This document shows, one piece after another, positions 800 through 18,100 of a stretch of 21,618 nt of DNA. A program made the position numbers and the translations under genes. The DNA comes from Afipia sp. (GTDB lineage Bacteria > Pseudomonadota > Alphaproteobacteria > Rhizobiales > Xanthobacteraceae). The notes under the pieces are model-generated. The model was not told the origin of the DNA. It saw nothing but the letters and a program-made list of their open reading frames with translations, and searched no databases. The first letter of the stretch is position 1. Each line of letters begins with the position of its first letter. The stretch is taken from contig JAGVII010000316.1 of NCBI GenBank assembly GCA_020056155.1, positions 1-21,618 on the forward strand, given 5' to 3'.

Positions 800-1567
800 A
801 TGAAAGCGGTAATCCTTGCGGGCGGCCTTGGTACCCGGATATCCGAGGAAACTGGCGTTAAGCCGAAGCCCATGATCGAAATCGGCGGCAAACCGATTTT
901 GTGGCACATCATGAAGATCTACTCGGCGCACGGCATTCACGACTTCGTGATTTGTTGCGGCTACAAGGGTTACATGATCAAGGAGTACTTCGCCAACTAT
1001 TTCCTGCACATGTCTGACGTAACCTTCGACATGGAAAACAACCAGATGAAGGTGCATCAGCGCAATGCGGAGTCGTGGCGCGTAACGCTGGTTGATACCG
1101 GGGACAACACCATGACGGGCGGGCGCCTGAAGCGAGTCCGCGATTACCTTGGCGATGAGGACTTCTGCTTCACCTATGGCGATGGAGTGGGTGACGTGGA
1201 TATTGGGCGGTCTATCGAATTCCATAGACAGCACGGCAAGTTGGCGACGGTAACGGCAGTGCAACCGCCGGGACGATTCGGTTCTCTGGATATGAAGGGC
1301 GATGACGTTCTTAGTTTCCAGGAAAAGCCTCAAGGTGATGGAAGCTGGATCAACGGAGGCTTCTTTGTCCTGTCGTCCAAAGTTGTCGACCTGATTGATG
1401 GCGATCAAACGAGTTGGGAACGAGAACCTTGCGAAAGGCTGGCGCGAGATAGGCAACTTTCCGTCTATCGGCATTCCGGCTACTGGCAGCCAATGGATAC
1501 GCTGCGAGACAAGATTCATCTCGAGGAACTTTGGCAATCGGGCAAAGCCCCTTGGAAGGTCTGGTGA
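800..1567 (+). CDS. rfbF: Glucose-1-phosphate cytidylyltransferase
   Basis: This enzyme makes CDP-glucose and diphosphate from glucose 1-phosphate and CTP, the first step towards CDP-6-deoxy sugars. The 255-residue product has the usual family length. It opens with the nucleotidyltransferase signature LAGGLGTR (6-13), followed by [12 protein letters not shown] (21-32), and has the metal-binding region TYGDGVGD (125-132). The ATG at 800 was chosen because GGAG at 789-792 sits 7 bases before it and because the conserved MKAVILAGG start falls there; an in-frame start at 773 would add nine unconserved residues. It is the first gene of the operon, and its stop overlaps the rfbG start by one base (TGATG). 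Confidence 0.96.
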
Positions 1568-2634
1568 TGGAGGCGTCTTTCTGGCGCGGCCGCCGGGTGT
1601 TCCTGACAGGGCATACCGGATTCAAGGGTAGTTGGCTTTCGTTGTGGCTACAACATCTGGGCGCCGAACTTACGGGTTTTGCACTTGAGCCTCCGACGAC
1701 CCCCAGTCTGTTCGAAGTTGCGCATGTGGCGCAGGGCATGAACTCCATCATCGGCGATATTAGGGATGCCGAGTCGTTGTCCAATGCCATGCGGCAAGCA
1801 CGACCAGAAGTGGTGATTCATATGGCCGCCCAGCCGCTGGTACGCTACTCCTATGCGCACCCGGTGGAAACCTACGCTACCAATGTCATGGGGACGGTCC
1901 ACCTGCTTGAGGCAGTGCGCGCGGTGGATACCGTTCGTGCTGTGGTTGTCGTCACCAGCGACAAGTGTTACGAAAATCGCGAGTGGGTATGGGGCTACCG
2001 GGAAAGCGAACCCATGGGTGGCTTCGATCCTTACAGCAGCAGCAAGGGTTGCGCCGAACTTGTTACGTCGGCATATCGAAACTCATATTTTGATTCAGCG
2101 AAATATTCCGAACATGGTGTTGCGCTCGCTACCGTTAGAGCCGGCAATGTCATCGGAGGAGGAGATTGGGCGCAGGATCGTTTGATTCCAGACATCATGC
2201 GAGCTATTGAGAATAGGGCTCCGGTGCAGATTCGAAGTCCCCACGCCGTTCGCCCATGGCAGCACGTGCTTGAACCCCTTGACGGCTATTTGATTCTGGC
2301 TGAGTTCTTGGTACGGCAGGGCTCCGTTTTTGCGGAGGGCTGGAACTTCGGTCCGGCCGATGATGATGCTCGACCTGTGCAATGGATTGTCGAGAGATTG
2401 GTCAGTTTTTGGGGTGACGGGGCGAACTGGGAACTGGATGCAGCACCGCGACCTCATGAGGCGAGTTACCTGAAGCTTGATTGCTCAAAGGCCCACACAC
2501 GCCTTGACTGGCAACCGCGTTGGCGATTGGAATCTGCCCTTCAACGCATCGTTGAATGGCACCAAGCCTATTTCCAATGCGCCGACATGCATAAATTTAC
2601 GTTAAAACAAATCGAAGAGCGCCAACGGGAGTAG
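1567..2634 (+). CDS. rfbG: CDP-glucose 4,6-dehydratase
   Basis: This extended short-chain dehydrogenase converts CDP-glucose to CDP-4-keto-6-deoxyglucose using tightly bound NAD. The 355-residue product has the family length. It shows the family form of the Rossmann motif, TGHTGFKGSWL (14-24), the HMAAQPLVR segment (85-93), TSDKCY (130-135), which holds the catalytic Thr and acidic region, and Y156-x3-K160 within DPYSSSKGC. The TGHTGFKG and TSDK variants separate it from dTDP-glucose dehydratases. GGAAGG at 1554-1559 is a good ribosome-binding site for the ATG at 1567. With rfbF it supplies the common precursor for abequose, paratose, tyvelose, ascarylose and yersiniose pathways. Confidence 0.95.
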   Translation: MEASFWRGRRVFLTGHTGFKGSWLSLWLQHLGAELTGFALEPPTTPSLFEVAHVAQGMNSIIGDIRDAESLSNAMRQARPEVVIHMAAQPLVRYSYAHPVETYATNVMGTVHLLEAVRAVDTVRAVVVVTSDKCYENREWVWGYRESEPMGGFDPYSSSKGCAELVTSAYRNSYFDSAKYSEHGVALATVRAGNVIGGGDWAQDRLIPDIMRAIENRAPVQIRSPHAVRPWQHVLEPLDGYLILAEFLVRQGSVFAEGWNFGPADDDARPVQWIVERLVSFWGDGANWELDAAPRPHEASYLKLDCSKAHTRLDWQPRWRLESALQRIVEWHQAYFQCADMHKFTLKQIEERQRE

Positions 2635-2697: not shown

Positions 2698-3801
2698 ATG
2701 ATTAGTCAGAAAGACAGGGACCTGTTCGAAAACTTGTTCGTACTTGAGGTGGCGAACAACCATTGGGGGAGTCTTGATCGCGGGTTGAAGATCATCCATG
2801 ATCATGCTGTTGTTGTCCGCTACAACAATGTCAAAGCTGCTCTCAAGCTCCAGTTTCGCGACGTAGACGAATTCATTCATCCGGACTTTAAGGGGAGTAC
2901 CGAACTGCGGTACATCAAGAAGACCGAGGATACCAAGCTCACGAAAGCCGATTTCGCGAAAATGATCGATGAGATTCGGCGCGTTTCCTGCATCCCGATG
3001 GCGACGCCATTCGACGAAGCGTCCGTTGATCTGTGCGTTGAGTTCGATCTTCCTATCATCAAGGTCGCCAGCTCAGACATGAACGACTGGGCATTGCTCG
3101 AAAAGATCGCCTCAACCAGACGACCAGTCATTGTCTCCACGGGAGGTGCGTCGGAAAAGGACCTAGATGACCTCGTGCGTTTTTTTGAACACCGCGACAT
3201 CTCACTTGCCATTAATCATTGCGTTGCGCTCTATCCGTCCGAGGATGGGGAACTGGACCTAGACCAGATCGACTACCTGAAGCGCCGTTACCCGAATCAC
3301 ATTATTGGATTGTCAACCCACGAATACCACGACTGGCATTCGTCCATGCTGATTTCCTATGGAAAGGGTGCCCGGAGTTGGGAGCGTCATATCGATATCG
3401 ATCATGGTGGGGTTGCGGTTTCACCCTACTGCTCCTTGCCGCAACAATGTGACGTATGGTTCAAGTCGTTTCGAAAAGCGGCTGAAATGTGCGGTGGACG
3501 TTCTGATTCCCGTCGTTCAATCTCTCGTCGCGAAGTCGAATATCTGGATGCGCTGGTGCGCGGCGCGTATGCGCGGCGCGATCTCGAGCCGGGGTACGTA
3601 TTTTCAAAGTGTGGATTCGAAAAAGACTTCTACCTCGCAATTCCTCTCAGGAAGGGCCAGTTGTCTTGTCGCGAAGTCATGAACGGTGAGCAGTTGGTCG
3701 TTCCGATCAAGGCCAACGAATCGCTAACCATCAATCACATCGACGGTCCTTATAACGAAAATGAAGGGCTGCGCAATCTGATTCTGAATCGCGGGCTCTG
3801 A
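2698..3801 (+). CDS. NeuB-like PEP-condensing synthase (sialic acid synthase family)
   Basis: NeuB enzymes condense phosphoenolpyruvate with an aldose (ManNAc or relatives) to give a 2-keto-3-deoxy-ulosonic acid. The 367-residue product keeps the TIM-barrel signatures: E17 in LEVANNHWG, K50-LQ, TPFD (103-106), KVASSD (122-127), STGG (147-150), H174 in NHCVALYP and H208 in IGLSTHEYHDW. H174 and H208 match the two metal-binding histidines of known NeuB. The ERH (229-231) is kept, but the following DRxxPGPDH-type substrate segment is replaced by DIDHGGVAVSPYCSL. A reduced SAF/antifreeze-like domain follows (about 305-350). No neuA or neuC accompanies it, and its neighbours are a cyclase and kinase, so the acceptor is probably not ManNAc. 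An in-frame ATG at 2665 is a possible longer start. Confidence 0.82.
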   Translation: MISQKDRDLFENLFVLEVANNHWGSLDRGLKIIHDHAVVVRYNNVKAALKLQFRDVDEFIHPDFKGSTELRYIKKTEDTKLTKADFAKMIDEIRRVSCIPMATPFDEASVDLCVEFDLPIIKVASSDMNDWALLEKIASTRRPVIVSTGGASEKDLDDLVRFFEHRDISLAINHCVALYPSEDGELDLDQIDYLKRRYPNHIIGLSTHEYHDWHSSMLISYGKGARSWERHIDIDHGGVAVSPYCSLPQQCDVWFKSFRKAAEMCGGRSDSRRSISRREVEYLDALVRGAYARRDLEPGYVFSKCGFEKDFYLAIPLRKGQLSCREVMNGEQLVVPIKANESLTINHIDGPYNENEGLRNLILNRGL

Positions 3802-3816
3802 CCGTTTTCTTCAGAC

Positions 3817-3820
3817 GGAG
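3817..3820 (+). promoter_or_regulatory. Ribosome-binding site that fixes a TTG start
   Basis: GGAG lies 5 bases before the TTG at 3826. No ATG or GTG lies at a suitable distance before the conserved Rossmann segment of the next gene, so this site supports the TTG start. Confidence 0.65.
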
Positions 3821-3825
3821 TTTTC

Positions 3826-4506
3826 TTGGAAAAGCTACGTGCTCTTGTGTTGGGCGGACGAGGCGATATCGGTGGTGCCATTGCCAATCGTCTTAGAGGA
3901 GAGGGCATCGAAGTTCTCCAAGTCGGCCGTGACGATTTTGATCTTGCCGACCCCGTTGGAATCGATGCTTTTTTTGCACGCCGTGGCGATGCCTATGACA
4001 TCCTCGTGCATAGTGCTGGGCTAAATCAGCCGAAGCTATTTGAGGATCTGACTGACGAGGAGATCCGTGCGTCGCTGGATGCAAACCTGCACGGCTTTCT
4101 TCACGTTGCTCGTGCGTGCTTGCCGAACTGGAAGTCGCGTCGTTTTGGTCGAGTTGTCGTCATCTCATCCTTGTACGGGTTCCTGGCCAGGAAGGGACGC
4201 CTGCCTTACGTTGTGTCGAAGCACGCCTTGAACGGCGCGGTAAAGACGCTTGCGATCGAATTGGCCCCGTACGGTGTGTTGGTCAATGCACTGTCGCCAG
4301 GTTATATAGGCACCAAGATGACCTACAAGAATAATTCCCCTGAAACCATTGCCAAGTTCGTCTCGGGAATTCCGCTGGGCCGCCTGGGTGAGCCCGAAGA
4401 CATCGCAGAAGTCGCTGCCTTCCTTTGTTCCCCCAGGAACCGCTATCTCACCGGGCAGGACCTGGTGGTGGATGGCGGATTCTCCGTCGGTGGTTTCCAA
4501 GGGTGA
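3826..4506 (+). CDS. Short-chain dehydrogenase/reductase (classical SDR)
   Basis: This 226-residue protein is a classical SDR, a NAD(P)-dependent ketone reductase or alcohol dehydrogenase. It shows a glycine-rich cofactor loop GGRGDIGG (10-17), N87 in DANLHG, catalytic serine in VVISS (S114 or S115), Y128-x3-K132, the SPGYIGT segment (157-163) and the C-terminal LTGQDLVVDGG typical of FabG-like proteins. The loop has R12-G13-D14 in place of the usual TGxxxGIG pattern, which is seen in some sugar-pathway members. Its start is TTG. Between a NeuB-like synthase and a sugar-phosphate cyclase, it most likely reduces or oxidises a keto group on the product of that pathway. The substrate cannot be read from the sequence. 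Confidence 0.88.
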   Translation: MEKLRALVLGGRGDIGGAIANRLRGEGIEVLQVGRDDFDLADPVGIDAFFARRGDAYDILVHSAGLNQPKLFEDLTDEEIRASLDANLHGFLHVARACLPNWKSRRFGRVVVISSLYGFLARKGRLPYVVSKHALNGAVKTLAIELAPYGVLVNALSPGYIGTKMTYKNNSPETIAKFVSGIPLGRLGEPEDIAEVAAFLCSPRNRYLTGQDLVVDGGFSVGGFQG

Positions 4507-4525
4507 GCACAGGAACCTATTTATC

Positions 4526-5677
4526 ATGAATGCCGAATTTCAAATCCAGCACCGGAAATTTTCCGCCGCCGTGACCCCCGATGTTGACGCGGGCTTCGAG
4601 GTCGCCTCCAGTCCACGCCCCTATCGCGTGGATTTTCCCGGTGGTGGCTCGCCGGCAATGAATCTTGCCCGCGAGATTGCAGCCGAGAGGGCGCCGTTGC
4701 TGTTGGTGGACAGCCAAATTCAAGCGCTGTACCTGACTGGCTCACCCACAATCGCAGCTGTTCCCACATTCTCCGTTGTCGCGAGGGAGGATGCCAAGGA
4801 AATCTCGACGGTGTTGGAAATTGTGGATTTCCTTGAGCAGAATCGAGCTACCAAGACCTCCATGCTGTTCGTGGTAGGAGGGGGCATCATCCAGGATCTG
4901 GGCGCGTTTTCCGGCGCCATGTACAAGCGCGGGTTGCCGTGGACGTTCGTCCCAACTACGTTACTCGCTCAAGGCGACAGTTGCGTCGGCGGAAAGACGG
5001 CGCTCAACCACAAGAATACGAAAAACCTCTTGGCCCTGTTTTCCGCACCCCGGCGGGTCATTATCGACACTGGTTTCCTAAAGACGTTGTCACGCAGAGA
5101 TTTGCTTTCCGGAGTGGGAGAGATCTTTCGCTTGTGCATCACCGGTGGTCCGCAGTTTCTGGACGAGTTCAGTGCCCGTCTGCCGGCCTTTCTTGCCGGC
5201 GATGCCAGCGCCACCCGCCGGTTGATTGCGACATCGTTATCTGCAAAGAAGGCTGTAGTGGAGTTCGACGAATTTGAACTCGATATCCGGCGCTCCATGA
5301 ATTACGGCCACAGCTTCGGCCACGCCCTCGAAGCCCTTACAGACTTCCTGATTCCGCACGGCGTCGGCGTCACTATCGGTATTTTGGTGGAGAACGAGAT
5401 CGCCTATCGTCGCGGCATGCTGGGTTGTGAGGAGCGGGATCGTATGCTGACGCTGGGCCGTCAGATCATTCCGGCGGATTGCCGGAAAGTCTTCTCTGTA
5501 GCCTCCCTGGACGGCGTTTTGGACCTCCTTCGTCGAGACAAGAAGACCGAGGGCACTGTTCTCAAGTTGGCGACGTTGGAGCGGATCGGCCAGATGCGCT
5601 TCATTGATTTCGTGCTCAATTCCGAGGGCGAGGCTGAGCTTCAGGCTGCTGTTACCGCCGTACTGGCAGAGATTTGA
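4526..5677 (+). CDS. 3-dehydroquinate synthase-like sugar-phosphate cyclase
   Basis: Members of this family (AroB, 2-epi-5-epi-valiolone synthase, 2-deoxy-scyllo-inosose synthase) use NAD and a metal to turn a sugar phosphate into a carbocycle with loss of phosphate. The 383-residue product has GGGIIQDLGAF (118-128), RGLPWTFVPTTLLAQGDSCV (135-154), GGKTALN (155-161), E199 in GVGEIF, R255 and H262 in IRRSMNYGHSFGH, and H278. E199, H262 and H278 fit the three metal ligands by spacing, and K241 fits a substrate lysine. Two changes stand out: the lysine three residues after the Glu ligand is R202, and the usual HGE is HGV (278-280). About 20 extra residues precede the domain. This suggests a specialised cyclase, not housekeeping AroB. 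AGGAA at 4511-4515 precedes the ATG. Confidence 0.85.
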   Translation: MNAEFQIQHRKFSAAVTPDVDAGFEVASSPRPYRVDFPGGGSPAMNLAREIAAERAPLLLVDSQIQALYLTGSPTIAAVPTFSVVAREDAKEISTVLEIVDFLEQNRATKTSMLFVVGGGIIQDLGAFSGAMYKRGLPWTFVPTTLLAQGDSCVGGKTALNHKNTKNLLALFSAPRRVIIDTGFLKTLSRRDLLSGVGEIFRLCITGGPQFLDEFSARLPAFLAGDASATRRLIATSLSAKKAVVEFDEFELDIRRSMNYGHSFGHALEALTDFLIPHGVGVTIGILVENEIAYRRGMLGCEERDRMLTLGRQIIPADCRKVFSVASLDGVLDLLRRDKKTEGTVLKLATLERIGQMRFIDFVLNSEGEAELQAAVTAVLAEI

Positions 5678-7029
5678 GCGAGCCTATCGTGGCTGACGTC
5701 CTGCTGCTGGATTTTGGGGCGAGCCGCGTCAAGTGCGCTCTATGGTCCGCACAAAGATTTGAGGTAATCGACGAGGCGGAGGTCCCTGCGCCAACTCCCG
5801 CTTTTGGTCCGCGTGGGGAGGTGGAAATCGAGCCAGAAGCCTATTGGTTGGCGCTGGAGTCCACGGCCGGGAGACTGGTTGCGAAACATCCGGAAGTAGA
5901 AAGCTTGTGGCTGTGTTCCGAAATGCATGGCGTAATTGTTGCCGACTGGGAGGGAGTGCCGCTCAGTCCGTACATCAGTTGGCGTGATGGCAGAGGCACC
6001 GTCACCAGTAATGGCGATCCTTCAACCTACGACAAGTTACTTGCGCAGCGAGATGCTTTTTTTGCCTTGAGCGGCATGAAGCTACGCCCAGGTTTACCCA
6101 TCGTTTCCCTGTCGCACTTGGCCTCCCAAAGCGCTTTGCCAAAGGGCGATCTGATGCTATTCACACTCGTTGACTGGCTGCTTTGGCGTGGTGGCGAACG
6201 GTATCCAGCGATTCATGCTTCCCTGGCTGCGGGTACCGGCTTCTACGATGTCCATCGGCAACTTTGGTCAGAAGCGCTGTTTGGTTTGGCGAGTTTGACC
6301 GACCGCAAGATTCGGATGGCAACAATTGCACCGGCAGGAACGCCTATCGGACGCATCGATCTGGCCGGGCGGAAAATCACTGTCTTTGGCGGTGTCGGCG
6401 ATCTTCAGGCCGCTGTTTTTGGTGCCGGTTTTCCAGGTCGGGTGACGATGGCGATCAACCTTGGAACGGGATCCCAAGTTCTGCGCGCGTGCAATAACCA
6501 GCTCATGGGTATCGAACGACGCCCCGGAGCGGATGGCGGAGAATTCGCAGCCATTACCCACATTCCTTCCGGCCGAGCGCTAAATGTGTTTGCCACCTGT
6601 CTCGACGGCTGTGCTCAACTCGGTGGCGGCCAGCCGTTTTTTTGGCGGCTGTTTGGCAGTCTTTCTACGGAGCAGGTGCTCCAGGCGCCCATGCAAGTGG
6701 ATATGAATGTGTTCGCGGCAGCGTGGAAGTATGAGCGGGGCGGTTCCATCCGTTTCATTCACGAAGGTGGCTTCACTCCCGATGAACTGCTTGCAGCCAT
6801 CGCGAGGGGGTGGCTTGCCCAGTACGCGACGGCCATGGAGCTGCTGGACCCTGAACGGGAGGAGTCGGCCTTCCTCGTTTCTGGAGGCCTTGGTCGGAGA
6901 GCGGAGTTTGTATCGCCAGTTCTTTCTGCCCTGAGCGGACGGGAAGCCCGACCGGTCGGCACGCTCACAGGCGAGGAAACCCTGGACGGATTGCTTGCAT
7001 TGGCAAGGAGTTGTGACCTTGTCAATTGA
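5674..7029 (+). CDS. FGGY-family carbohydrate kinase, sedoheptulokinase-like
   Basis: FGGY kinases transfer the ATP gamma-phosphate to a ketose, polyol or related sugar. The product (451 residues) has the N-terminal phosphate motif LLLDFGASRVK (10-20), SEMHG (82-86), SWRDGRG (102-108), GVGDLQAAVFGAG (240-252) with D243 the likely catalytic base, INLGTGSQV (261-269) and the C-terminal adenosine motif SGGLGRRAEF (403-412). The GDLQ context of the catalytic Asp resembles, from memory, sedoheptulokinase more than xylulose or glycerol kinases. It starts with TTG at 5674, overlapping the cyclase stop by four bases (TTGA); a GTG at 5689 is the alternative. A kinase beside a cyclase that needs a phosphorylated substrate makes functional sense, with a heptulose or ulosonic acid as the candidate substrate. 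Confidence 0.85.
   Translation: MSEPIVADVLLLDFGASRVKCALWSAQRFEVIDEAEVPAPTPAFGPRGEVEIEPEAYWLALESTAGRLVAKHPEVESLWLCSEMHGVIVADWEGVPLSPYISWRDGRGTVTSNGDPSTYDKLLAQRDAFFALSGMKLRPGLPIVSLSHLASQSALPKGDLMLFTLVDWLLWRGGERYPAIHASLAAGTGFYDVHRQLWSEALFGLASLTDRKIRMATIAPAGTPIGRIDLAGRKITVFGGVGDLQAAVFGAGFPGRVTMAINLGTGSQVLRACNNQLMGIERRPGADGGEFAAITHIPSGRALNVFATCLDGCAQLGGGQPFFWRLFGSLSTEQVLQAPMQVDMNVFAAAWKYERGGSIRFIHEGGFTPDELLAAIARGWLAQYATAMELLDPEREESAFLVSGGLGRRAEFVSPVLSALSGREARPVGTLTGEETLDGLLALARSCDLVN
7005..7010 (+). promoter_or_regulatory. Ribosome-binding site that fixes a TTG start
   Basis: AAGGAG lies 8 bases before the TTG at 7019 and within the end of the kinase gene. The in-frame GTG at 7013 is only 2 bases from it, too close, so the TTG at 7019 is preferred. 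Confidence 0.7.
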
Positions 7030-7663
7030 CACTGTCCTTTTCGACCTCGATGGCACATTGATTGATAGTGCGCCCCTGGTCGGTGGCATTCTCAATGGCA
7101 TGCGCGAGAATCGGGGGTGGGCGACCTTACCGCCGAGTTGCTATCGCCAGTGGATAAGCTTGGGGGCTGCGGCTCTGGTTGGCCGCGCTATGGAGGCCAA
7201 TGCACAGGACACACCCTCCCTTGTGGAGGAATTCCGCAGTCGCTACCGTGCGCTACCAACGCCCATGGACACTCTGTTTCCGGGGGTTGCAGAGACCCTC
7301 GCCATCTTGACTGCATCCGGCGTTCACCTTGGTCTGTGCAGCAACAAGCCGGAGCATCTATGTCGCAAGGTACTGTCTGACACAGGACTGGCCCCATATT
7401 TCGGCAGCGTAGTCGGCGGTGATACAACTAGCCAACCCAAGCCTCATCGCCAACCCATTGATTGCGCTTTGGACGCGCTGGGTAGCGCTGCTGAATTCGC
7501 AATTCTGGTAGGCGACAGCACGGTGGACCAACGCGCGGCGGACGCGGCGAAAGTGCCTTTCGTGTTTTTTTCCCATGGCTACGACGACGGAGTAAACGTT
7601 GGTGCTGCCCGCTGGCGCGTAGATGCATTACCCGAAGTGCTCGATATTGTTCGCAATTCCTGA
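7019..7663 (+). CDS. HAD-superfamily phosphatase (phosphoglycolate-phosphatase-like)
   Basis: The 214-residue product is a Gph-type HAD hydrolase, probably a sugar-phosphate phosphatase. It has all four motifs: FDLDGT (8-13) with nucleophile D9 and acid/base D11, CSNK (107-110), K141 in QPKPHRQP, and VGDSTVD (164-170) with D166 and D170. The segment between motifs I and II is the alpha-helical cap of subclass I. The start is TTG at 7019, chosen from its ribosome-binding site; the gene overlaps the kinase by 11 bases. In this context it may remove a phosphate put on by the kinase, or act like GmhB/KdsC-type phosphatases of heptose and ulosonic-acid pathways. The substrate is not readable from sequence. 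Confidence 0.88.
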   Translation: MSIDTVLFDLDGTLIDSAPLVGGILNGMRENRGWATLPPSCYRQWISLGAAALVGRAMEANAQDTPSLVEEFRSRYRALPTPMDTLFPGVAETLAILTASGVHLGLCSNKPEHLCRKVLSDTGLAPYFGSVVGGDTTSQPKPHRQPIDCALDALGSAAEFAILVGDSTVDQRAADAAKVPFVFFSHGYDDGVNVGAARWRVDALPEVLDIVRNS

Positions 7664-7667
7664 AGGG
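7663..7667 (+). promoter_or_regulatory. Ribosome-binding site supporting a GTG start
   Basis: AAGGG lies 6 bases before the GTG at 7674. The in-frame ATGs at 7689 and 7695 have no purine-rich sequence before them, so the GTG is favoured. Confidence 0.5.
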
Positions 7668-7673
7668 TTAAGC

Positions 7674-8783
7674 GTGATTTTGAACGATATGGAAATGGAT
7701 AGTTGCACAGTCAGGGGTGTTCCCGGAAACCAGGTTGTCGCCCGGCCTTGGTCCATGGAGCACGACCTGGACGATGTGTGGCAGCAGACTCACTCCGTAT
7801 GGCCGGCATTGCGTGGAGCCCGGCTGTTCCTCACTGGAGGAACCGGCTTCATCGGTTGCTGGTTGCTGGAAAGTTTACGTCATGCCGATCAGCGCCTTGG
7901 CCTCGGTGTGCAAGCTACCATCCTGACTCGGGATCCGCTGGCCTTCAGACGTAAAGCGCCCCATTTGGCCGATTACCCCGGATTCCGCTTCGTAACTGGC
8001 GATGTCTGCGGTTTCGACACGCCCGCCGGAGAATTCAGTCATCTCATTCATGCCGCCACCGACGCCAGCGCCGCACTCAACGAAAACGATCCGCGGCGCA
8101 TGTTCGATACTGTTATCCAGGGTACCCGCCGGGCGCTGGATTTTGCGGTTGAGAAATCGGTAGACCGTGTGCTGTTCCTCAGTTCCGGGGCTGTGTATGG
8201 CCAACAGCCTTGGGAGATGGAGCGCGTCGCGGAAAACTGGATCGGCTCCCCCAGTTGTACCGATCCACGCGCTGCTTATGCTGAAGGCAAGCGGGCGGCG
8301 GAGATGCTCTGCGCGATCTATCAGAAGCAGTTCGGTACCAAGATCGCCATTGCCCGCATCTTTGCCCTGCTCGGCCCCTACCTGTCCTTGGATATTCATT
8401 TCGCCGCTGGAAATTTCATCCGTGACGCTATGCAGGGGAGCCCAGTCATTGTGAACGGAAACGGTCTGCCATGTCGATCCTATCTATATGCATCGGACCT
8501 CACTGTCTGGCTCTGGCAAATGCTCGTCCTCGCCGAGCCTGGCAAACCCTACAATGTCGGTTCGGATGAGTCTGTATCCATTCGGGATTTGGCCGAACGA
8601 GTTGCACGCGTGATTGGTAGCGGAAGTTATCAAGTGCTCGGGGCACCGGACCAGGGCTGGAACCCTGGTCGCTATGTGCCGGACACTGGTCTCATCGCAA
8701 ACGACCTTGGTCTTCGCAGAACGGTGTCATTGGACGAGGCGATACGTAGAACTGCACTTTGGAATGGTTGGAAAGGGAAATGA
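7674..8783 (+). CDS. NAD-dependent epimerase/dehydratase family protein (extended SDR)
   Basis: This 369-residue extended SDR acts on a nucleotide sugar. After about 48 non-conserved residues it shows the Rossmann motif TGGTGFIG (54-61), HAATD (126-130), LSSGAVYG (169-176) and the catalytic Y202-x3-K206 in YAEGKRAAE. YLYASDLTVWLWQML (270-284) and YNVGSDES (293-300) are the usual C-terminal substrate-binding features. It lies directly before the thiamine-diphosphate enzyme, with four bases between stop and next start. In the yersiniose pathway a reductase of this superfamily (YerF) reduces the keto group on the two-carbon branch added by YerE, and the same role is plausible here. Epimerase or 4-reductase activity on a CDP-sugar are alternatives. 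The long N-terminal extension is unusual; starts at 7689 or 7695 would shorten it. Confidence 0.82.
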   Translation: MILNDMEMDSCTVRGVPGNQVVARPWSMEHDLDDVWQQTHSVWPALRGARLFLTGGTGFIGCWLLESLRHADQRLGLGVQATILTRDPLAFRRKAPHLADYPGFRFVTGDVCGFDTPAGEFSHLIHAATDASAALNENDPRRMFDTVIQGTRRALDFAVEKSVDRVLFLSSGAVYGQQPWEMERVAENWIGSPSCTDPRAAYAEGKRAAEMLCAIYQKQFGTKIAIARIFALLGPYLSLDIHFAAGNFIRDAMQGSPVIVNGNGLPCRSYLYASDLTVWLWQMLVLAEPGKPYNVGSDESVSIRDLAERVARVIGSGSYQVLGAPDQGWNPGRYVPDTGLIANDLGLRRTVSLDEAIRRTALWNGWKGK

Positions 8784-8787
8784 CGAA

Positions 8788-10593
8788 ATGAAGTTGTCGG
8801 ATTACGTTGCTCAGAAGGTTGTCGAACATGGCATTCGCCATGTGTTCATGGTCACCGGCGGGGGTGCCATGCACCTCAATCACTCTCTCGGTACCCACAA
8901 GGATCTGGAGTGCATCTTCAATCACCACGAACAAGCATGTGCTATTGGTGCAGAAGCGTACTACCGCCTCACCAATCGACTTCCCTTGGTCAATGTCACT
9001 TCCGGCCCTGGTGGAACGAATGCGATTACCGGCGTTTACGGTGCATGGGTGGATTCCATCGGCATGGTGGTGCTGTCGGGGCAAGTGAAGTGGGAAACCA
9101 CCGTTCGCAGCACCGGTCTGCCTCTGCGGCAATACGGCGATCAGGAACTCGACATCGAAGAGCTGGTACGCCCGATCACCAAATATTGCGTCATGGTGAC
9201 GGACCCTCAGTCCATTCGGTATCACCTGGAGAAGGCCATCTATCTGGCAACCGCAGGTCGTCCAGGGCCCTGCTGGCTCGATATACCCTTGAATGTACAA
9301 GGTGCGCAGATTGATCCCGAAACCCTGCGCGGTTTCGATCCGGCGGAATTGAAAGAGCCGTGGAAGCGCACCGATCTGAATGCCGCCACCGCTGCGATCC
9401 TGCAAAAAGTTCGATCTGCAAAGCGCCCCGTGGTGTTCGCCGGCGGCGGTGTGCGCTTGAGTGGTCAACATGACGCCTTTATCCGCTTGGTGGACAAACT
9501 TGGCATCCCTGTCGTGACCGGCTGGAACGCCCACGATGCCATTTGGGACGCCCACCCGAACTATGCGGGACGTCCTGGCACGGTGGGGGATCGAGCGGGG
9601 AATTTCGCGGCGCAGAACGCTGACCTGCTTCTCATCCTCGGTAGCCGCCTCAATATCCGTCAGGTCAGTTACAACTGGAAGAGCTTCGCCCGGGCGGCAT
9701 ACAAGATATGGGTGGACATCGATGAACTCGAACTACAAAAGCCCACCGTCAAGGCAGACATGCCGGTGTTCGCCAGCCTGACCGACCTGCTGCCGGTCCT
9801 CGCTGCCCACCCCTACACTGGCCCGTCGCGCGAGCACAAGGAGTGGCTACGGTGGTGCAAGGAACGGCAACGCCGCTTCCCTATTGTGCTGCCAGAATAT
9901 TGGAACAACGAGCGGGTCAATCCCTATTGCTTCATTACGAAATTGTTTGAGCAACTGGCGGACAATCAGATCGTTGTCACTGCCAACGGCACCGCGTGCG
10001 TGGTCAGCTTCCAGGCCGCGGTGTTGAAACCCGGACAAAGACTTTGGACCAATTCCGGGTGCGCCACCATGGGGTACGACCTGCCCGGTGCCATCGGGGC
10101 TTGCAAGGCATCAGGCGGCAAGGCCATCGTCTGCATCGCCGGCGATGGAAGCATCATGATGAACTTGCAGGAACTGCAAACCATTGTCGGTAACCGACTG
10201 CCGATCAAGATATTCCTCCTCAACAACAGCGGCTACGCTTCCATCTTCCAGACGCACCGTAACTTTTTCGCAGGTGTGGAAGTGGGCGGCGGTCCGAAGA
10301 GCGGCGTTACGTTTCCGGATTTTGGCCGCCTAAGCGAGGGATTCGGCCTGCCGTTTCGCCGTTGTTCCCGCCACGAAGACATGTCAGATGCCGTTGCTGA
10401 AACGATGGCGATCGATGGACCGGCCGTGTGCGAGGTGATGCTGGATGAAAACCTATCCTTCGCGCCGAAGCTGGGAGCCAAGCAATGGCCGGACGGGCGG
10501 ATTACCTCTCCGGCCCTGGAAGACCTTTCGCCCTTCCTTTCCCGCGAGGAACTACAGGACAATATGCTCATCGACCTCATGGAGGACCAGTAA
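8788..10593 (+). CDS. Thiamine-diphosphate-dependent enzyme, YerE/acetolactate-synthase-like
   Basis: The 601-residue product has the three-domain plan of the acetolactate synthase/pyruvate decarboxylase family: N-terminal Pyr domain with catalytic E48 in NHHEQACAIGAEAY, a middle domain with GRPGPCWLDIPLNVQ, and the C-terminal PP domain with the ThDP motif GDGS (452-455) to NN (479-480). The C-terminus (EDLSPFLSREEL near 570-590) resembles ThDP proteins of surface-polysaccharide clusters more than IlvB. No ilvH-like small subunit is nearby. In Yersinia, YerE joins a two-carbon unit from pyruvate to C-4 of a CDP-keto-dideoxy sugar; with rfbF, rfbG and the adjacent SDR this is the best analogy. 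Biosynthetic acetolactate synthase is the less likely alternative. The ATG at 8788 is preceded by AAAGGG at 8772-8777. Confidence 0.83.
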   Translation: MKLSDYVAQKVVEHGIRHVFMVTGGGAMHLNHSLGTHKDLECIFNHHEQACAIGAEAYYRLTNRLPLVNVTSGPGGTNAITGVYGAWVDSIGMVVLSGQVKWETTVRSTGLPLRQYGDQELDIEELVRPITKYCVMVTDPQSIRYHLEKAIYLATAGRPGPCWLDIPLNVQGAQIDPETLRGFDPAELKEPWKRTDLNAATAAILQKVRSAKRPVVFAGGGVRLSGQHDAFIRLVDKLGIPVVTGWNAHDAIWDAHPNYAGRPGTVGDRAGNFAAQNADLLLILGSRLNIRQVSYNWKSFARAAYKIWVDIDELELQKPTVKADMPVFASLTDLLPVLAAHPYTGPSREHKEWLRWCKERQRRFPIVLPEYWNNERVNPYCFITKLFEQLADNQIVVTANGTACVVSFQAAVLKPGQRLWTNSGCATMGYDLPGAIGACKASGGKAIVCIAGDGSIMMNLQELQTIVGNRLPIKIFLLNNSGYASIFQTHRNFFAGVEVGGGPKSGVTFPDFGRLSEGFGLPFRRCSRHEDMSDAVAETMAIDGPAVCEVMLDENLSFAPKLGAKQWPDGRITSPALEDLSPFLSREELQDNMLIDLMEDQ

Positions 10594-11036
10594 TGGGGCG
10601 ATGGCAGAGTTGCCTGGAGACTGGTCGACGCCTCGCCGACGAGCATCAGACGAAAGTCAGATTTCTCCTGGCCGGCGCCTTCAATACCGCCTTGGGTTTG
10701 GCAACCTATCCTGCGCTCTATTTTTTGCTGGCGTCTTTGGACCTTCATTATCTGGCGATTCTCGCCATCAGCCAAGTTGTGTGTGTGACCTTTGCTTTTC
10801 TGACCAATAAGTTTCTGGTGTTCCGCACATCCGGAAACTATCTGAGTGAATATGGAAAGTTCATCACGTTTCATCTGTCCTATTTTCTAGTGAATCTAGT
10901 GGTGCTACCCATTCTGGTGGAATTTGCGGGCATGAGCCCGGTTTGGGCACAGACGCTGTTCGCCGTGCTGGTTATCGTCTCCAGCTACTTTTGGCATAGC
11001 CGCATTACCTTTTCCTCAACCAAGGTGGCGCCGTAA
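10593..11036 (+). CDS. GtrA-family membrane protein
   Basis: This 147-residue protein has four predicted membrane helices, the GtrA plan. It contains FLLAGAFNTALGLATYP (24-40), NKFLVFR (about 72-78) between helices two and three, and the C-terminal SSYFWHSRITFS, all family-typical. GtrA proteins are thought to flip or help transfer polyprenyl-phosphate-linked sugars made by a GtrB-type glycosyltransferase; such an enzyme is encoded two genes downstream. The ATG overlaps the previous TAA by one base, and GGAGG at 10581-10585 lies 7 bases before it, so translation is probably coupled. Confidence 0.88.
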   Translation: MGRWQSCLETGRRLADEHQTKVRFLLAGAFNTALGLATYPALYFLLASLDLHYLAILAISQVVCVTFAFLTNKFLVFRTSGNYLSEYGKFITFHLSYFLVNLVVLPILVEFAGMSPVWAQTLFAVLVIVSSYFWHSRITFSSTKVAP

Positions 11037-11968
11037 TGGAGCAGAACGGTTTTCTTAGGCGCGTTTGCCCTGTCTGCGGCAGCCAACCATCGGCGCCAGA
11101 AATTGGTTCGGAGCTAAGAGCAGAGTCCATGGGCTTCGACGCCTTGGTTCCACATTGGAACGGCTTCTTCAAAGACAAAGCGTTCTTCTCCTACGCTCGT
11201 TGTGGCGGATGTGGGCTGCTCTATGCCCCAACATTCTTCAACGGGTCCCAGTTGGAGAATCTCTACGGGCAGATGCCGCCAAACATGGCCGTGGTTCCGC
11301 TGGAAGCCCTGCGGCGAACCCAACGCGGCTATTTTCAGACACTGAAGAAGTGGTCGTTGCTGGAAGGTGGATTCATCGAGGTTGGGCCGGACATCGGGTT
11401 GTTCACTGAGAACTGTGTACGAGACGGGCAGTTCGGCGAGTACTGGCTGTTTGAACCGAACCGGGACGTAGCTCCAACTCTCGGCAAAGTCGTGGATGGC
11501 CAGAGAGCCCACATCATTCATGACATGTTCGGCTTCTCAAGCGTACCGGATCAAGCGGCCTCGGTGGCCGTCATGATTCACGTTTTGGATCATCTGCTAG
11601 ACCCGATAGCTACCTTGCGAGATCTACGAAAAAAGCTGCGACCGGAGGCCCGGCTCTTGTTGGTGACACATGATGAATCGTCGCTCTTGCGACATATCGT
11701 TAGCTGGAGATGGCCGGCGTTCTGTCTTCAACATCCACAAATCTATAACCCATCGACCATGCGCGCACTCTTGGGTGCTGCGGGTTTCCAAGTGCTACAT
11801 CAAGAAAAGACCACCAACTTTTTCGAAATAGGTTTTCTGGTGAAGCATCTGCTCTGGGCGTTGGGCATCAAAATCAAGTCGGTGCCGAGTTTCTGGCATA
11901 TTACTGTCGGTCTCAAGCTCGGCAACATGCTTACGATCGCGACTCCGAAAGGAGAAATAACACCATGA
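11036..11968 (+). CDS. Class I SAM-dependent methyltransferase with N-terminal zinc ribbon
   Basis: The 310-residue product carries two CxxC pairs (C11/C14 and C56/C59), predicted to form a zinc ribbon, then a methyltransferase core. The SAM motif is EVGPDIGLF (115-123), followed by an acidic ribose-binding position in FEPN (E140) and a HVLDHLLDP segment (182-190) typical of Methyltransf_11/23 folds. A similar zinc-ribbon plus methyltransferase layout is known in sugar C-methyltransferases such as the TylC3 type, so the target may be a sugar in this pathway; O-methylation is also possible. It starts at 11036, overlapping the GtrA stop by one base, and overlaps the next gene by four bases (ATGA). 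Confidence 0.8.
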   Translation: MEQNGFLRRVCPVCGSQPSAPEIGSELRAESMGFDALVPHWNGFFKDKAFFSYARCGGCGLLYAPTFFNGSQLENLYGQMPPNMAVVPLEALRRTQRGYFQTLKKWSLLEGGFIEVGPDIGLFTENCVRDGQFGEYWLFEPNRDVAPTLGKVVDGQRAHIIHDMFGFSSVPDQAASVAVMIHVLDHLLDPIATLRDLRKKLRPEARLLLVTHDESSLLRHIVSWRWPAFCLQHPQIYNPSTMRALLGAAGFQVLHQEKTTNFFEIGFLVKHLLWALGIKIKSVPSFWHITVGLKLGNMLTIATPKGEITP

Positions 11969-12903
11969 CCGAACGGCCGCTACTGAGCATTGTTACCCCC
12001 TGCTACAACGAGGAAGACAACGTCGATGAGCTCTACGCCCGGATCAAAGCGGCGACTTTGGGCCTTACGAAATACGAGTTCGAGCTGATCTTCATCGACA
12101 ATCATTCGGAAGACGGTACAGTGGCTAAGCTGAAGCGACTGGCGGCAAGTGATTCGATGGTTAAAGTCATTGTCAATACGCGTAACTTCGGTCATATCCG
12201 TTCCCCCTACTACGGCATCTTGCAGTCCCGCGGGCTTGCCACCATTTATCTGGCCTCTGATCTTCAAGATCCACCGGAAATGATTCCCGAGTTCATCCGG
12301 TATTGGGAAGAGGGCTACAAGCTGGTTATGGCAACCAAGCCGGAGAGCAAGGGGTCCGCCTGGGTTCACGCATTGCGCAAGGCGTATTACCGCTTTCTGG
12401 ACGGAATTTCTGACATTACCTTGTTGGCCGATTCAACGGGCTTTGGGTTGTATGACCGCGAAGTTCTCGACCACGTTCGACAGATTGACGATCCCTATCC
12501 CTACCTCCGTGGGTTGATCTGTGAACTCGGCTACGAAATCAAGACTATCCCGTTTACCCAGCCACGAAGGCTGCGCGGAATATCGAAGAACAATCTTTAT
12601 ACCTTGTACGACATCGCCATGCTGGGTGTTGTCAGCCATTCAAAGGTGCCGATTCGGATTGCGGCGTTCACTGGTTTCGCATTGGGCGCGATCAGCCTGG
12701 TGTTGGCATTTGTTTTTTTGGTATTGAAAGTATTGTTCTGGGATTCATTCCCGCTAGGGATTGCGCCGCTGGCGATTGGGCTTTTCTTTCTGTTTGGGAT
12801 CCAGTTGTTCTTTATCGGCATTCTTGGCGAGTACATTGCATCGATTCACACCTACGTTCAGCGCCGCCCGGTTGTGGTGGAAAAGGAAAAAATTAACTTC
12901 TAG
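11965..12903 (+). CDS. GtrB-type polyprenyl-phosphate glycosyltransferase (GT2)
   Basis: The 312-residue product is a GT2 enzyme of the DPM1/GtrB/ArnC group that moves a sugar from a nucleotide donor to polyprenyl phosphate on the inner face of the membrane. It shows IVTPCYNEEDNV (9-20), FIDNHSEDGT (43-52), NTRNFGH (71-77), the metal/donor motif ASDLQDPPEM (97-106) and two C-terminal membrane helices (about 226-250 and 262-285). IDNHSEDGT and NFGH vary slightly from the usual IDDGSxDGT and NxGH forms. AAAGGAG at 11948-11954 precedes the ATG. With the GtrA-like protein and the GT-C protein next to it, it forms a classic three-part set for lipid-linked, periplasmic decoration of the polysaccharide. 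Confidence 0.9.
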   Translation: MTERPLLSIVTPCYNEEDNVDELYARIKAATLGLTKYEFELIFIDNHSEDGTVAKLKRLAASDSMVKVIVNTRNFGHIRSPYYGILQSRGLATIYLASDLQDPPEMIPEFIRYWEEGYKLVMATKPESKGSAWVHALRKAYYRFLDGISDITLLADSTGFGLYDREVLDHVRQIDDPYPYLRGLICELGYEIKTIPFTQPRRLRGISKNNLYTLYDIAMLGVVSHSKVPIRIAAFTGFALGAISLVLAFVFLVLKVLFWDSFPLGIAPLAIGLFFLFGIQLFFIGILGEYIASIHTYVQRRPVVVEKEKINF

Positions 12904-15106: not shown

Positions 15107-15142
15107 TTGCGGCATGAACTCATCGTGGTGGATGAGTCGCAA
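15107..15142 (+). promoter_or_regulatory. Hairpin covering the start of the large phosphotransferase gene
   Basis: ACTCATC (15118-15124) pairs perfectly with GATGAGT (15131-15137) around a GTGGTG loop; outside it TTGCG (15107-15111) pairs with CGCAA (15138-15142), with a six-base bulge on the left side. Its 3' end reaches the A of the ATG at 15142, and the only weak purine-rich site, GATGAG (15131-15136), is inside the stem. It could hold back translation of the next gene. The base pairing is observed; the function is inferred. Confidence 0.45.
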
Positions 15143-18100
15143 TGAGTAGGTCTTGGGCGCGGCCTGTGGTAATAGCAGGGTTGCTCGTCTTCGTCGTATT
15201 GCTGACAGTTGCGACGCTGGACTCTTATGTGCTGCACCGTCGTGTGGCGCCCCAAATCGAGTATGACTTCTCCCTGGGCAATGGGGCGGTCGAGATTGGT
15301 AACATTTCCAAGGATATCGCTAGGCCGTCCGACAGGCTCCGGGTCAGCCTTTCTTTCAAGATCAATGGGAATGTCTTACAGCACCGAATTGGAGACGGTT
15401 ATCAGAACATATTTCAGACATCGCAGGGCAACAACGGCATTCGGCTAGAGCTATCGACAAATGAGGGACCCAATAGCCGAATGGGACTTGTCGCCAGTTC
15501 GGCGTTGGGAGAATCATTGGGGATGGATCTCGGTCGGATGCCAATCCCCGGGAGTTGGCACGACTTTGTGTTGGAGGTCGTGGACGGGAAACTTGATGTT
15601 TGGCTGGATGGTGTTGCGATTGGAACGGTTTCTGGGGTTGTTCGTGATCTTCCCTTGGATGACGTCGCTATTGGAACCGGATTTTCGAAGCAGCGCCCTT
15701 TCAACGGCCAAGTGCGCAATTTCCAGATAAGTCGCAGTATCGGAGTCTTCGACGAAAGCTCGATGTTTACGCTGTATGTGGTTTCCGGAAGTCTTGCGAT
15801 GTGTGGATGGCTGGTGTTCGTCTTCTTTCGTTATCGTTCGCACGGATACGAGCCCACGTTTTCTAGAACGATAAAGGCAGGAACTGTACTTCTGTCGGTT
15901 GCGTCCTTGTTTGGAGTGGTCCTGCTTCTAACTCCAGTGCAGGGAAGTATTGCGCTCTATTTCACCTACTTATCTTGGTGCGTACTCGCACTGGCCATCA
16001 TCGCATCGTTACGTGGCTTTCTTGGCTCGGGCCCAAATAGTTGGGCTGTGGGTGGCCTGATTGCTGCGATATGCTATCTGGGCTTCCTTCTCTACGCCGC
16101 TGCCGCTACCTATCTGGGGCATCTTGATCGGAATTCAGGGATATTGTCAGCCGCAGATGCGTCGGCGGTATTTCAATCGTCATCGCGAGAGTCGGTCGAG
16201 TTTCTCGTTTTACACTTCAGTACGCGCGAACTGTTGTTCATCTTCCTGATTCCTGTGTTTCCGTCGCTTGGCGTCTTGATGGCCTTTTTTTCGGAAATGT
16301 ATGCTGCGCGGAGGTCCATATTGGTCCTTCCAGCACTCGTGATGGGTATCTGTGTTCCGCTTATGTACCCAACAGGAAATTCGGTGGCCGCAGAGCTTGT
16401 TAGTGCGTATGCGGAATACCAACGTAGTACCGACGAGTTGATCGCATTGATCAATGAACGCCGTTTGACGCACGCAATTACTGCCAGCAAGAAGGACCAA
16501 GGCGAGCTATATCTCGTAGTAATTGGTGAGTCGGCAAACCGGGACCATATGTCGGCTTACGGATATTTTCGAAAGACAACACCCTGGATGGATCAGAAGA
16601 CGTCCGATCCGAGCTGGATTATTTTTGACAATGCATATACAAGTTTTTCTCACACGGTTCCATCGCTAACGCAAGCGCTGAGTCAGGCGAATCAATACAA
16701 CGACCTTGATATCCGGCGTGCGCCTACACTCATTGAGTTGATGAACACGGCAGGATTCGATACATATTGGATTGATGAACAGGGATCGGCACTAGGTGAT
16801 ACGCCGCTGAATGCGATAGCTCAAGTATCCAAGCAGAACAGGTACGTCCGCCCGCTGGGCCAAATCAAGAACGCTTTACGGGATATTCTTGAGTCCATGG
16901 ATCGAGGCAGGAATAACCTCGTCGTTCTGCATCTAATGGGATCGCACGCGGACTACGCGCGACGAGTTCCCGACGCGTACGGAGTACGCTTCAATGACGG
17001 CATTGAGGAACTCGGGGATATTGCCAAGGATAAAGAGTTTGTTGAGAAGGTTCTCGATCCGTACGACAGATCCATCCATTACACCGACCGGTTAATTTCA
17101 GAGCTCTGGGATATGACCAAGACGCAGGTGGGAGAACCGTCCGTATTCGTCTATTTTTCCGATCACGGGGAGGACGTCTATGGGAAGAAGTTTCACGATG
17201 CCTCGCGGTTCACTTATTCGATGGTAAGGTCGCCCTTGGTGATGCAGTTCTCACCTCAATGGATAGCTAGGAATCCGCATCGTTTCGAGACTCTCAGACG
17301 CAATCGAGGTCGCGTTTTCACATTGGATTTACTCTTTGAAACCATGACGGGTATGAGTGGAATTCAGGAGTTCAAATACGATCACCGGTATGACCTTGGT
17401 GATGATCAGTATGCGCTCGACGAAAGAGATGCCGTTACGATGCGAGCTGATGGAGAGTTGGACAAAGCGCTTTACGCGGATTCTGGCGTTAGGTTTATCC
17501 GGGATGATCCACAATTTATTGCTCGGAGAAATGTGGAATATCTAAATGCAACGTACGGAAATAAGGTCATGTCGGTGCACAACGATATGAAGAACAAACT
17601 GTACGAGTCGGCTTTTTCTGGGTTCAAGGGAGTCGAGTTCAATATTGGCATCCCTTCGATGAAGATGGGGCACTACCCACAAAGTGTGTATCCGGTCGAT
17701 CTTGACCAGTTTCTCGCGTACGACGCGACGAAACAATTCCAGCGGTATTGGTTCGACATGAAAGTCGAAAACGGGTACTCGTTGGTCGATGCACTCGATA
17801 AGTTGGAGGAATTGGATCGTCGATTTGATCTGAAAAAGCGGGCACTTATCGAAAGCTGGGACGATGACCTCGTCTATTTTTCCGAGAAGGGATGGAGGAC
17901 TTCGTACTATATGCACGAAGATCGTTGGAAGAAGTGCGGGAAGTTCGATGTCAATGTGAGCGAGTGCGCAAAGGAAATTGCTGCTGAGATCAAGAAGACC
18001 AAGGCGACATCGGTCAGTTTCTTTTTCGATAACTATGCCTTCGTTAAACGCTATCTTGAACCCATGTTGCCTAAGGACATCGGGTATCACACGTTTGGGT

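Follow-up and report, generated by a model that had tools for sequence, protein, structure and literature searches.

What might a bacterium build when genes resembling the entry of the shikimate pathway stand inside a polysaccharide locus? This question is raised by a stretch of 21,618 nucleotides from Afipia sp. (contig JAGVII010000316.1, forward strand), the whole of which is called the window here; its source genome has 4.56 Mb in 909 contigs and is 84.6% complete. An earlier note had described five adjacent genes, for a NeuB-like synthase, a short-chain dehydrogenase/reductase (SDR), a cyclase related to 3-dehydroquinate synthase (DHQS), an FGGY kinase and a HAD phosphatase, and had proposed that together they could make a carbocyclic sugar for the polysaccharide. 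The domain matches and coordinates bear out five adjacent genes at 2698..7663 with small gaps or overlaps; what had been overlooked is a YerE-like carboligase (8788-10593) and the cytidine diphosphate (CDP)-glucose genes. Since aldolase and cyclase go with this carboligase and with the CDP-glucose genes, a branched CDP-sugar is a more probable product than a free cyclitol, and we tentatively prefer the reading that the cassette serves to make a CDP-deoxyhexose bearing a carbocyclic branch on C-4. The genes on which this reading leans are the following.

800..1567, + strand: RfbF, glucose-1-phosphate cytidylyltransferase (TIGR02623, 479 bits against a cut-off of 300)
1567..2634, + strand: RfbG, CDP-glucose 4,6-dehydratase, predicted source of the CDP-4-keto acceptor (TIGR02622, 516 bits against a cut-off of 278)
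2698..3801, + strand: NeuB-like synthase, putative maker of the 4-hydroxy-2-oxo acid donor (PF03102, 115 bits)
3826..4506, + strand: SDR reductase with a TTG start, putative ring-ketone reducer (PF13561, 157 bits)
4526..5677, + strand: sugar phosphate cyclase, DHQ-synthase-like, with ATG at 4526 (PF01761, 113 bits; PF24621, 90 bits)
5674..7029, + strand: FGGY-fold kinase, putative donor of a phosphate to the NeuB product at its terminal hydroxyl (PF00370, 50 bits)
7019..7663, + strand: HAD phosphatase, accessory and outside the conserved core (PF13419, 105 bits)
8788..10593, + strand: YerE/JanthE-like thiamine diphosphate (ThDP) carboligase, fifth core gene, with ATG at 8788

The spacing is 24 bases between NeuB and SDR and 19 between SDR and cyclase, and the overlaps are 4 bases for cyclase/FGGY and 11 for FGGY/HAD, all on the + strand. 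With RfbF and RfbG at 800-2634 the carboligase is thus encoded with CDP-deoxyhexose genes, to which relatives of the locus add RfbH.

Co-occurrence and gene trees

The tie between aldolase, cyclase and carboligase was measured in scans with the cyclase as query, designed so that the loci were not chosen by NeuB or ThDP. The best 80 of 142 loci were taken from the viral scan, and the main test set consists of 56 non-redundant loci of these scans whose contigs extend 4 kb or more to each side (54 of them viral, 2 from genome_contigs); 20 of the 89 non-redundant cyclase loci, having less than 4 kb on one side, were left out. Typing was done by family models with cut-offs, in bits, of 350 for NeuB, 250 for ThDP, 250 for HpaI, 230 for cyclase, 80 for FGGY, 120 for SDR, 150 for cytidine triphosphate (CTP) transferase and 400 for RfbH, which were chosen after the scores had been seen, the models being built partly from the tested loci. 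The carboligase was present in 34 of the 34 loci with NeuB or HpaI and in 0 of the 22 without (Fisher 5e-16, relatedness ignored), and the counts became 42/42 with an aldolase and 0/27 without when loci of the other searches were added. Across all 89 loci it was found in 29 of 30 with NeuB (the exception, L011, is cut), in 19/19 with HpaI, in the single locus with both, and in 5 of the 39 others (L003, L004, L005, L010 and L145, which have less than 1.3 kb on one side).

The cassettes are of a NeuB kind (NeuB-ThDP-SDR-cyclase-FGGY), an HpaI kind (HpaI-SDR-cyclase-ThDP, without kinase) and a third kind, CTP-transferase-SDR-cyclase, with neither aldolase nor ThDP. In the 56 loci the FGGY kinase accompanies NeuB in 17 of 21, HpaI in 0 of 13, and the loci without aldolase in 0 of 22; one might suppose that the aldehyde taken by HpaI already carries the phosphate needed in such systems. 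Of the 89 loci 76 have an SDR gene, and in 74 of these no more than 200 nt separate it from the cyclase. A CTP transferase, a MocA-type oxidoreductase or both were also observed with a cyclase and without carboligase in L140, L142, L143, L107, L108 and others, including TIGR04425 proper, and this cassette possibly makes a cyclitol activated with cytidine monophosphate or CDP.

The same partnership was seen from the side of the carboligase. Among 21 non-redundant ThDP-first viral loci a keto-acid supplier was found within 3 kb in 18 (PanB 9, NeuB 6, HMGL-like aldolase 2, HpaI 1), in 2 there was none and in 1 the contig was cut off; L097 fell under the carboligase cut-off in this count. The PanB model gave 308 bits against a cut-off of 272 (one representative), the HpcH/HpaI-family proteins 36 and 46 bits against 25, and the HMGL-type protein is nearest to 4-hydroxy-2-oxovalerate aldolase with 93 bits, which is below the cut-off. 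A YerE-like carboligase stands beside an HMGL-like gene in L070, L072, L073, L088 and L090 and beside a PanB-like gene in 14 loci (L076-L094). The NeuB, PanB, HMGL-type and HpaI families make or cleave 4-hydroxy-2-oxo acids, and this looks like an exchange of the branch donor through exchange of the supplier beside the carboligase. That four supplier families make donors of the type taken by ErwE, for which 4-hydroxy-2-oxo acids are described as preferred (PMC12247030, in the part available), is our strongest ground for assigning NeuB the role of donor supplier.

Trees were made for 47 pairs of NeuB and ThDP proteins, from 28 loci that have a cyclase and 19 that do not, with quick-tree support values and some rows on long branches. 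To explain where the cyclase occurs, the NeuB tree needs 13 changes, close to the average of 15.0 under shuffling (a count as low came up in 92 of 500 shuffles), and the carboligase tree needs 4 (0/500 as low). The control was c2, a reductase-like gene usually situated just beyond, that is downstream of, the swapped block; for the 40 loci having it the changes numbered 11 for NeuB (73/500 as low), 10 for c2 (25/500) and 3 for the carboligase (0/500), and a c3 control on 39 loci gave 11 changes (90/500 as low). In a tree of 74 ThDP proteins of all kinds, from which L062 was left out, the six cassette classes needed 10 changes against 41.9 when shuffled. Since the carboligase tree tracks the cyclase and the NeuB tree does not, the task of NeuB appears not to depend on the cyclase, and the carboligase appears matched to the ring-forming genes. 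An order in which the cyclase acts before NeuB is disfavoured, as the NeuB tree ignores the cyclase. Residue comparisons were made too and were not used as evidence: carboligase position T421 (window protein) switches between T and S with the cyclase in two hand-picked clades, and 55 carboligase positions (none in NeuB) differ in at least one clade, which the clade split alone could cause.

Enzyme families and the proposed route

The window cyclase has the DHQ_synthase and DHQS_C domains and the DHQS fold of the sugar phosphate cyclase superfamily. Residues E199, H262 and H278, which we take to be the Glu-His-His metal ligands of DHQ synthase, are kept in 84/84, 84/84 and 83/84 typed loci, one residue being undetermined in the sequence. 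It is not the housekeeping enzyme: it gave 240 bits with TIGR01357 (AroB), short of the cut-off of 305, and a separate AroB is present on another contig of the same genome. Its top NCBIfam model is TIGR04425, with 279 bits against a cut-off of 400, and eight relatives scored 264-398 bits. The NeuB-like enzyme carries the PF03102 domain far over its cut-off of 22 bits, and its top solved relative is 3g8r (197 bits). A pathway to a nonulosonic acid of the sialic, pseudaminic or legionaminic type was rejected for it, as the equivalog scores are far too low (PseI 100 bits against 340, NeuB 93 against 400) and the conserved partners differ. The kinase exceeds the FGGY_N cut-off of 29 bits and has the two-domain fold (model pLDDT 88); the 50 Foldseek matches listed are mostly glycerol and xylulose kinases with TMq 0.69-0.77.

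For the carboligase, the conserved fifth partner, the closest solved ThDP enzyme is 8rph (JanthE) with 408 bits, the runner-up having 244. An ordinary acetolactate synthase was rejected, as the acetolactate synthase models among the 25 listed out of 54 did not reach their cut-offs and JanthE is far closer. YerE is a maker of 4-C-branched sugars, and one survey is said to list over 200 YerE-like enzymes. According to the available parts of the two papers, YerE transfers an acetyl unit onto a CDP-linked keto sugar (PMC12247030), and JanthE is YerE-like, couples keto acids to ketones, and takes a 4-hydroxy-2-oxo acid donor with benzaldehyde as acceptor, its physiological substrates being described as unidentified (PMC12188165).

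In the route that we propose, the substrates, the order of the steps after NeuB, the ring size and the product are predicted from these families and folds together with the co-occurrence and the trees. RfbF and RfbG would yield CDP-4-keto-6-deoxyglucose, from which RfbH, in the relatives that have it, would give the 3,6-dideoxy form. The NeuB-like enzyme would join phosphoenolpyruvate (PEP) to an aldehyde to give a 4-hydroxy-2-oxo acid (a 3-deoxy-2-ulosonate), and the FGGY kinase would phosphorylate its far end, giving a molecule like 3-deoxy-D-arabino-heptulosonate 7-phosphate (DAHP). The carboligase would then decarboxylate this donor and add the acyl unit to the 4-keto group, so that a ketone would come to lie at the place of the C2 ketone of DAHP, with the sugar substituting for the carboxylate. 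The cyclase would eliminate the phosphate and close the branch onto that ketone, in a six-membered ring if the aldehyde is a tetrose, and the SDR would reduce the ring ketone; the outcome would be a deoxyhexose whose C-4 is bonded, carbon to carbon, to a cyclitol. NeuB would act first or independently of the other enzymes. Ligation before closure is the simplest order, since a DHQS-type closure consumes the C2 ketone and a cyclase acting first would use up the keto group that the carboligase needs. In ring-forming systems the carboligase would thus meet a phosphorylated donor, which would explain why its tree follows the kinase and the cyclase.

A known sugar lends this route a model. Caryophyllose is given as 3,6,10-trideoxy-4-C-(1-hydroxyethyl)-decose in the available part of PMC9026286. 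By YerE chemistry its long arm would come from 3,7-dideoxy-heptulosonic acid, the 7-carbon DAHP skeleton minus the terminal oxygen; with a terminal phosphate on such a donor, a DHQS-like enzyme could close a six-membered ring. A cassette lacking RfbH is plausible as well, since C4-branched sugars differ in having or lacking the C3 hydroxyl (PMC9912281, in the part available).

Several observations weigh against this route or its step order. The basic residues K241 and R255 of the cyclase, which we take to be the carboxylate ligands in DHQ synthase, are kept in 84/84 typed loci; the substrate may therefore still bear a carboxylate, which favours closure before ligation, and these retained residues may speak for the step order of the earlier note. 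The carboligase adjoins the SDR-cyclase block, so that linkage may account for some of the tree signal, and c2 itself shows a weak signal in the 40-locus control. L107 has an HpaI-family gene of 203 bits, below the cut-off, with a cyclase and without carboligase, and likewise L168, without carboligase, has a NeuB-family gene of 90 bits, also below the cut. FGGY-family genes stand beside a cyclase without aldolase in L108 (46 bits, below the cut-off of 80) and L219 (92 bits, contig cut), and L170 and L172-L174 are NeuB loci with cyclase and without kinase. No RfbH was found in the window, and none over the cut-off in its 84.6% complete genome.

Three other explanations were weighed. One keeps closest to the earlier note: NeuB, kinase, cyclase, SDR and HAD would supply the polysaccharide with a free carbocyclic acid or cyclitol, and the carboligase would serve another residue. 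It draws on the DHQ-synthase positions kept in the cyclase, including the two taken to be carboxylate ligands, and on the loci without aldolase, 18 of 27 of which have a CTP transferase with the cyclase and no carboligase; the aldolase-carboligase tie (34/34 against 0/22), the NeuB genes beside a carboligase where no cyclase is seen (19/21) and the cyclase following the carboligase tree rather than the NeuB tree all speak against it, as does the HAD gene, which occurs in a minority only, and we consider it unlikely. Somewhat less probable again is that kinase and cyclase turn a ketose of central metabolism into the cyclic-ketone acceptor of the carboligase, as in the synthesis of 2-epi-5-epi-valiolone, with the NeuB product as donor. 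This likewise predicts a cyclase that tracks the carboligase and not NeuB, and would fit the cyclase and SDR occurring without nearby aldolase in 21 of 27 loci (twice with the FGGY-family genes of L108 and L219) and the cyclic ketones that JanthE accepts according to the available part of PMC12188165. RfbH, however, is present in 16 of 28 loci with cyclase and 12 of 19 without, so in more than half of the relatives and about equally in both groups, so that the acceptor is probably the same; moreover, the kinase was not found (0/13) where HpaI replaces NeuB, which ties it to the aldolase product, and the cyclase is closer in sequence to DHQS than to 2-epi-5-epi-valiolone synthase (141 against 98 bits).

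The least probable of the three supposes linkage only: NeuB and carboligase would make an open-chain branched sugar and the SDR-cyclase-kinase block, unrelated to it, would ride with the carboligase by position. The two do adjoin physically in many loci, and NeuB with carboligase and no cyclase in view is common (21/38, some contigs cut). What counts against mere position is that c2, usually across the block, needs 10 changes where the carboligase needs 3 on the same 40 loci, and that the HpaI loci keep aldolase, SDR, cyclase and carboligase together in other gene orders. The CDP-deoxyhexose with a carbocyclic C-4 branch stays our tentatively preferred reading. The shikimate-like logic of the earlier note survives in part: the cyclase has the fold and residues of DHQS, and NeuB, kinase, cyclase and SDR make plausible chemistry, but the cassette is not self-standing, the carboligase and CDP-glucose genes being tied in.

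It is a rather speculative possibility that we have before us a new class of sugar, in which a 6-deoxyhexose carries a cyclitol through a carbon-carbon bond at C-4. Its synthesis would combine the ring closure of the shikimate route with carboligation of the YerE type, the sugar replacing the DAHP carboxylate; the keto-acid supplier would be modular (NeuB or HpaI; PanB or HMGL in ring-less versions), and at least one T4-like phage carries the core kit. If so, producers of carbocyclic branched sugars among bacteria and phages could be predicted from the gene set, enzymes of the JanthE type would have a natural use, and a sugar phosphate cyclase would act on a nucleotide-activated higher sugar. 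Among the open-access papers listed, no title or abstract opening describes this gene set, and part of it may be in print.

Distribution in bacteria and phages, and neighbouring genes

The scan of genome_contigs with the cyclase as query gave 10 loci with a relative of that cyclase, in which NeuB was found in 7, SDR in 7, FGGY in 9 and ThDP in 10/10, with varying gene orders. The contigs of L003, L004 and L010 end at most 0.9 kb upstream of the cyclase; in L010 FGGY was not found though the downstream side is open, and the SDR of L007 (66%) was missed in typing by the open reading frame filter. The earlier note asked whether its five genes recur together: NeuB, SDR, cyclase and FGGY do so in bacteria and on viral contigs. 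HAD was present in 4 of the 10 loci, at 68, 61, 41 and 31% identity; none of the 17 non-redundant viral NeuB loci with cyclase has it, and among the 69 cyclase loci that were typed it occurs in 3 (window, L007, L008). Dephosphorylation by HAD was accordingly rejected as a core step.

The cassette is rare and patchy. At E <= 1e-60 the cyclase was found in 3 of 397 sampled genomes of the window's order, its own and those of L107 and L108, which hold another kind of cassette without carboligase. NeuB at E <= 1e-100 was found in 1 of 397, its own only; at E <= 1e-90, with 398 genomes of the phylum covered, it was found in 2, its own included, and the other, L109, has NeuB directly adjoining ThDP, and a cyclase was not found in the stretch read. 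Plasmids gave no match for the NeuB (E 1e-80) or carboligase (E 1e-100) queries. The AroB-like frames in L132 and L133 (records G490 and G539) each have one in-frame stop, which may be an assembly error.

The IMG/VR scans gave 52 loci with the NeuB query and 34 with the ThDP query on partly shared contigs, and sugar cassettes on contigs classed as viral make up L013-L098 and L146-L225. In 38 non-redundant viral NeuB loci the carboligase is the direct neighbour in 36 and one gene away in 2; FGGY was found in 17/17 of those with cyclase and 0/21 of the rest, and some of the loci in which NeuB adjoins the carboligase without cyclase lie on cut contigs. L028 and L040 (without cyclase) have the same flanking clusters as L031, L034 and L035 (with cyclase), and in the former pair a c10 gene (representative of 180 aa, no Pfam match) replaces SDR-cyclase-FGGY after the carboligase. 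In L013, L015 and L016, viral and without cyclase, a HAD gene lies between NeuB and carboligase, where it may serve another purpose.

Record G417 (210 kb, locus L041) is a phage by two hallmark genes, as a terminase and a T4-type gp23 occur together with NeuB, ThDP, SDR, cyclase and FGGY. Among 39 viral records terminase was found in 2 and gp23 in 2, most records being fragments. Cultured phages gave no match to the NeuB query (E 1e-40); the carboligase query found 18 phage records at about 30% identity, partly annotated as acetolactate synthase, and the matches of the cyclase query in phages and plasmids were all below 60% identity and partly annotated as 3-dehydroquinate synthase or aroB. 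The presence of the cassette in phages hints at a contest over sugars of the surface or the virion.

Other features of the window surround the core.

72-518: rplI, upstream of RfbF
7623..8783, + strand: NAD-dependent epimerase/reductase-like gene, accessory, true start unsure (PF01370, 114 bits)

The epimerase-like gene has relatives at 66% identity in L004 and 47% in L145. A GtrA-type transmembrane domain and a GT2 glycosyltransferase adjoin the cassette at 10548-12903, which suggests transfer of the sugar via a polyprenyl phosphate carrier. At 15142-18234 lies a protein of 1030 aa with a domain of the sulfatase family; a part of it resembles laminin G weakly, below the cut-off.

Relation to known systems

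Caryose and bradyrhizose are carbocyclic lipopolysaccharide sugars (PMC9026286, PMC9912281 and PMC4743980, in the parts available), so that the precedent offered by the earlier note holds in so far as such sugars exist. The likeness is a loose analogy of product type only; nothing found here connects their genes, whose clusters were not compared, with a DHQS-like cyclase, and the available part of PMC4743980 called the bradyrhizose genes unknown in 2016 and proposed an 11-gene cluster then. The family TIGR04425, a putative AroB-related sugar phosphate phospholyase (cyclizing), is the top-scoring model and shares the adjoining SDR. The window cyclase stays below its cut-off, and L140-L143, which exceed it, have SDR in 4/4, MocA in 3/4 and CTP transferase in 2/4, with no carboligase in the stretch read.

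With the branched-sugar pathways of YerE, ErwE and JanthE (yersiniose, erwiniose, caryophyllose) the cassette shares the CDP-glucose genes, the YerE-like carboligase and a nearby enzyme of the 4-hydroxy-2-oxo-acid type, and beyond these it has a kinase, an SDR and a cyclase of the phosphate-eliminating type; the available part of PMC12247030 names no such cyclase. With the shikimate entry, DAHP synthase followed by DHQ synthase, it shares the predicted PEP condensation, the terminal phosphate and a cyclase with the fold and active-site residues of DHQS, and it differs in having a NeuB-family enzyme for DAHP synthase, a separate kinase and the tie to a carboligase.

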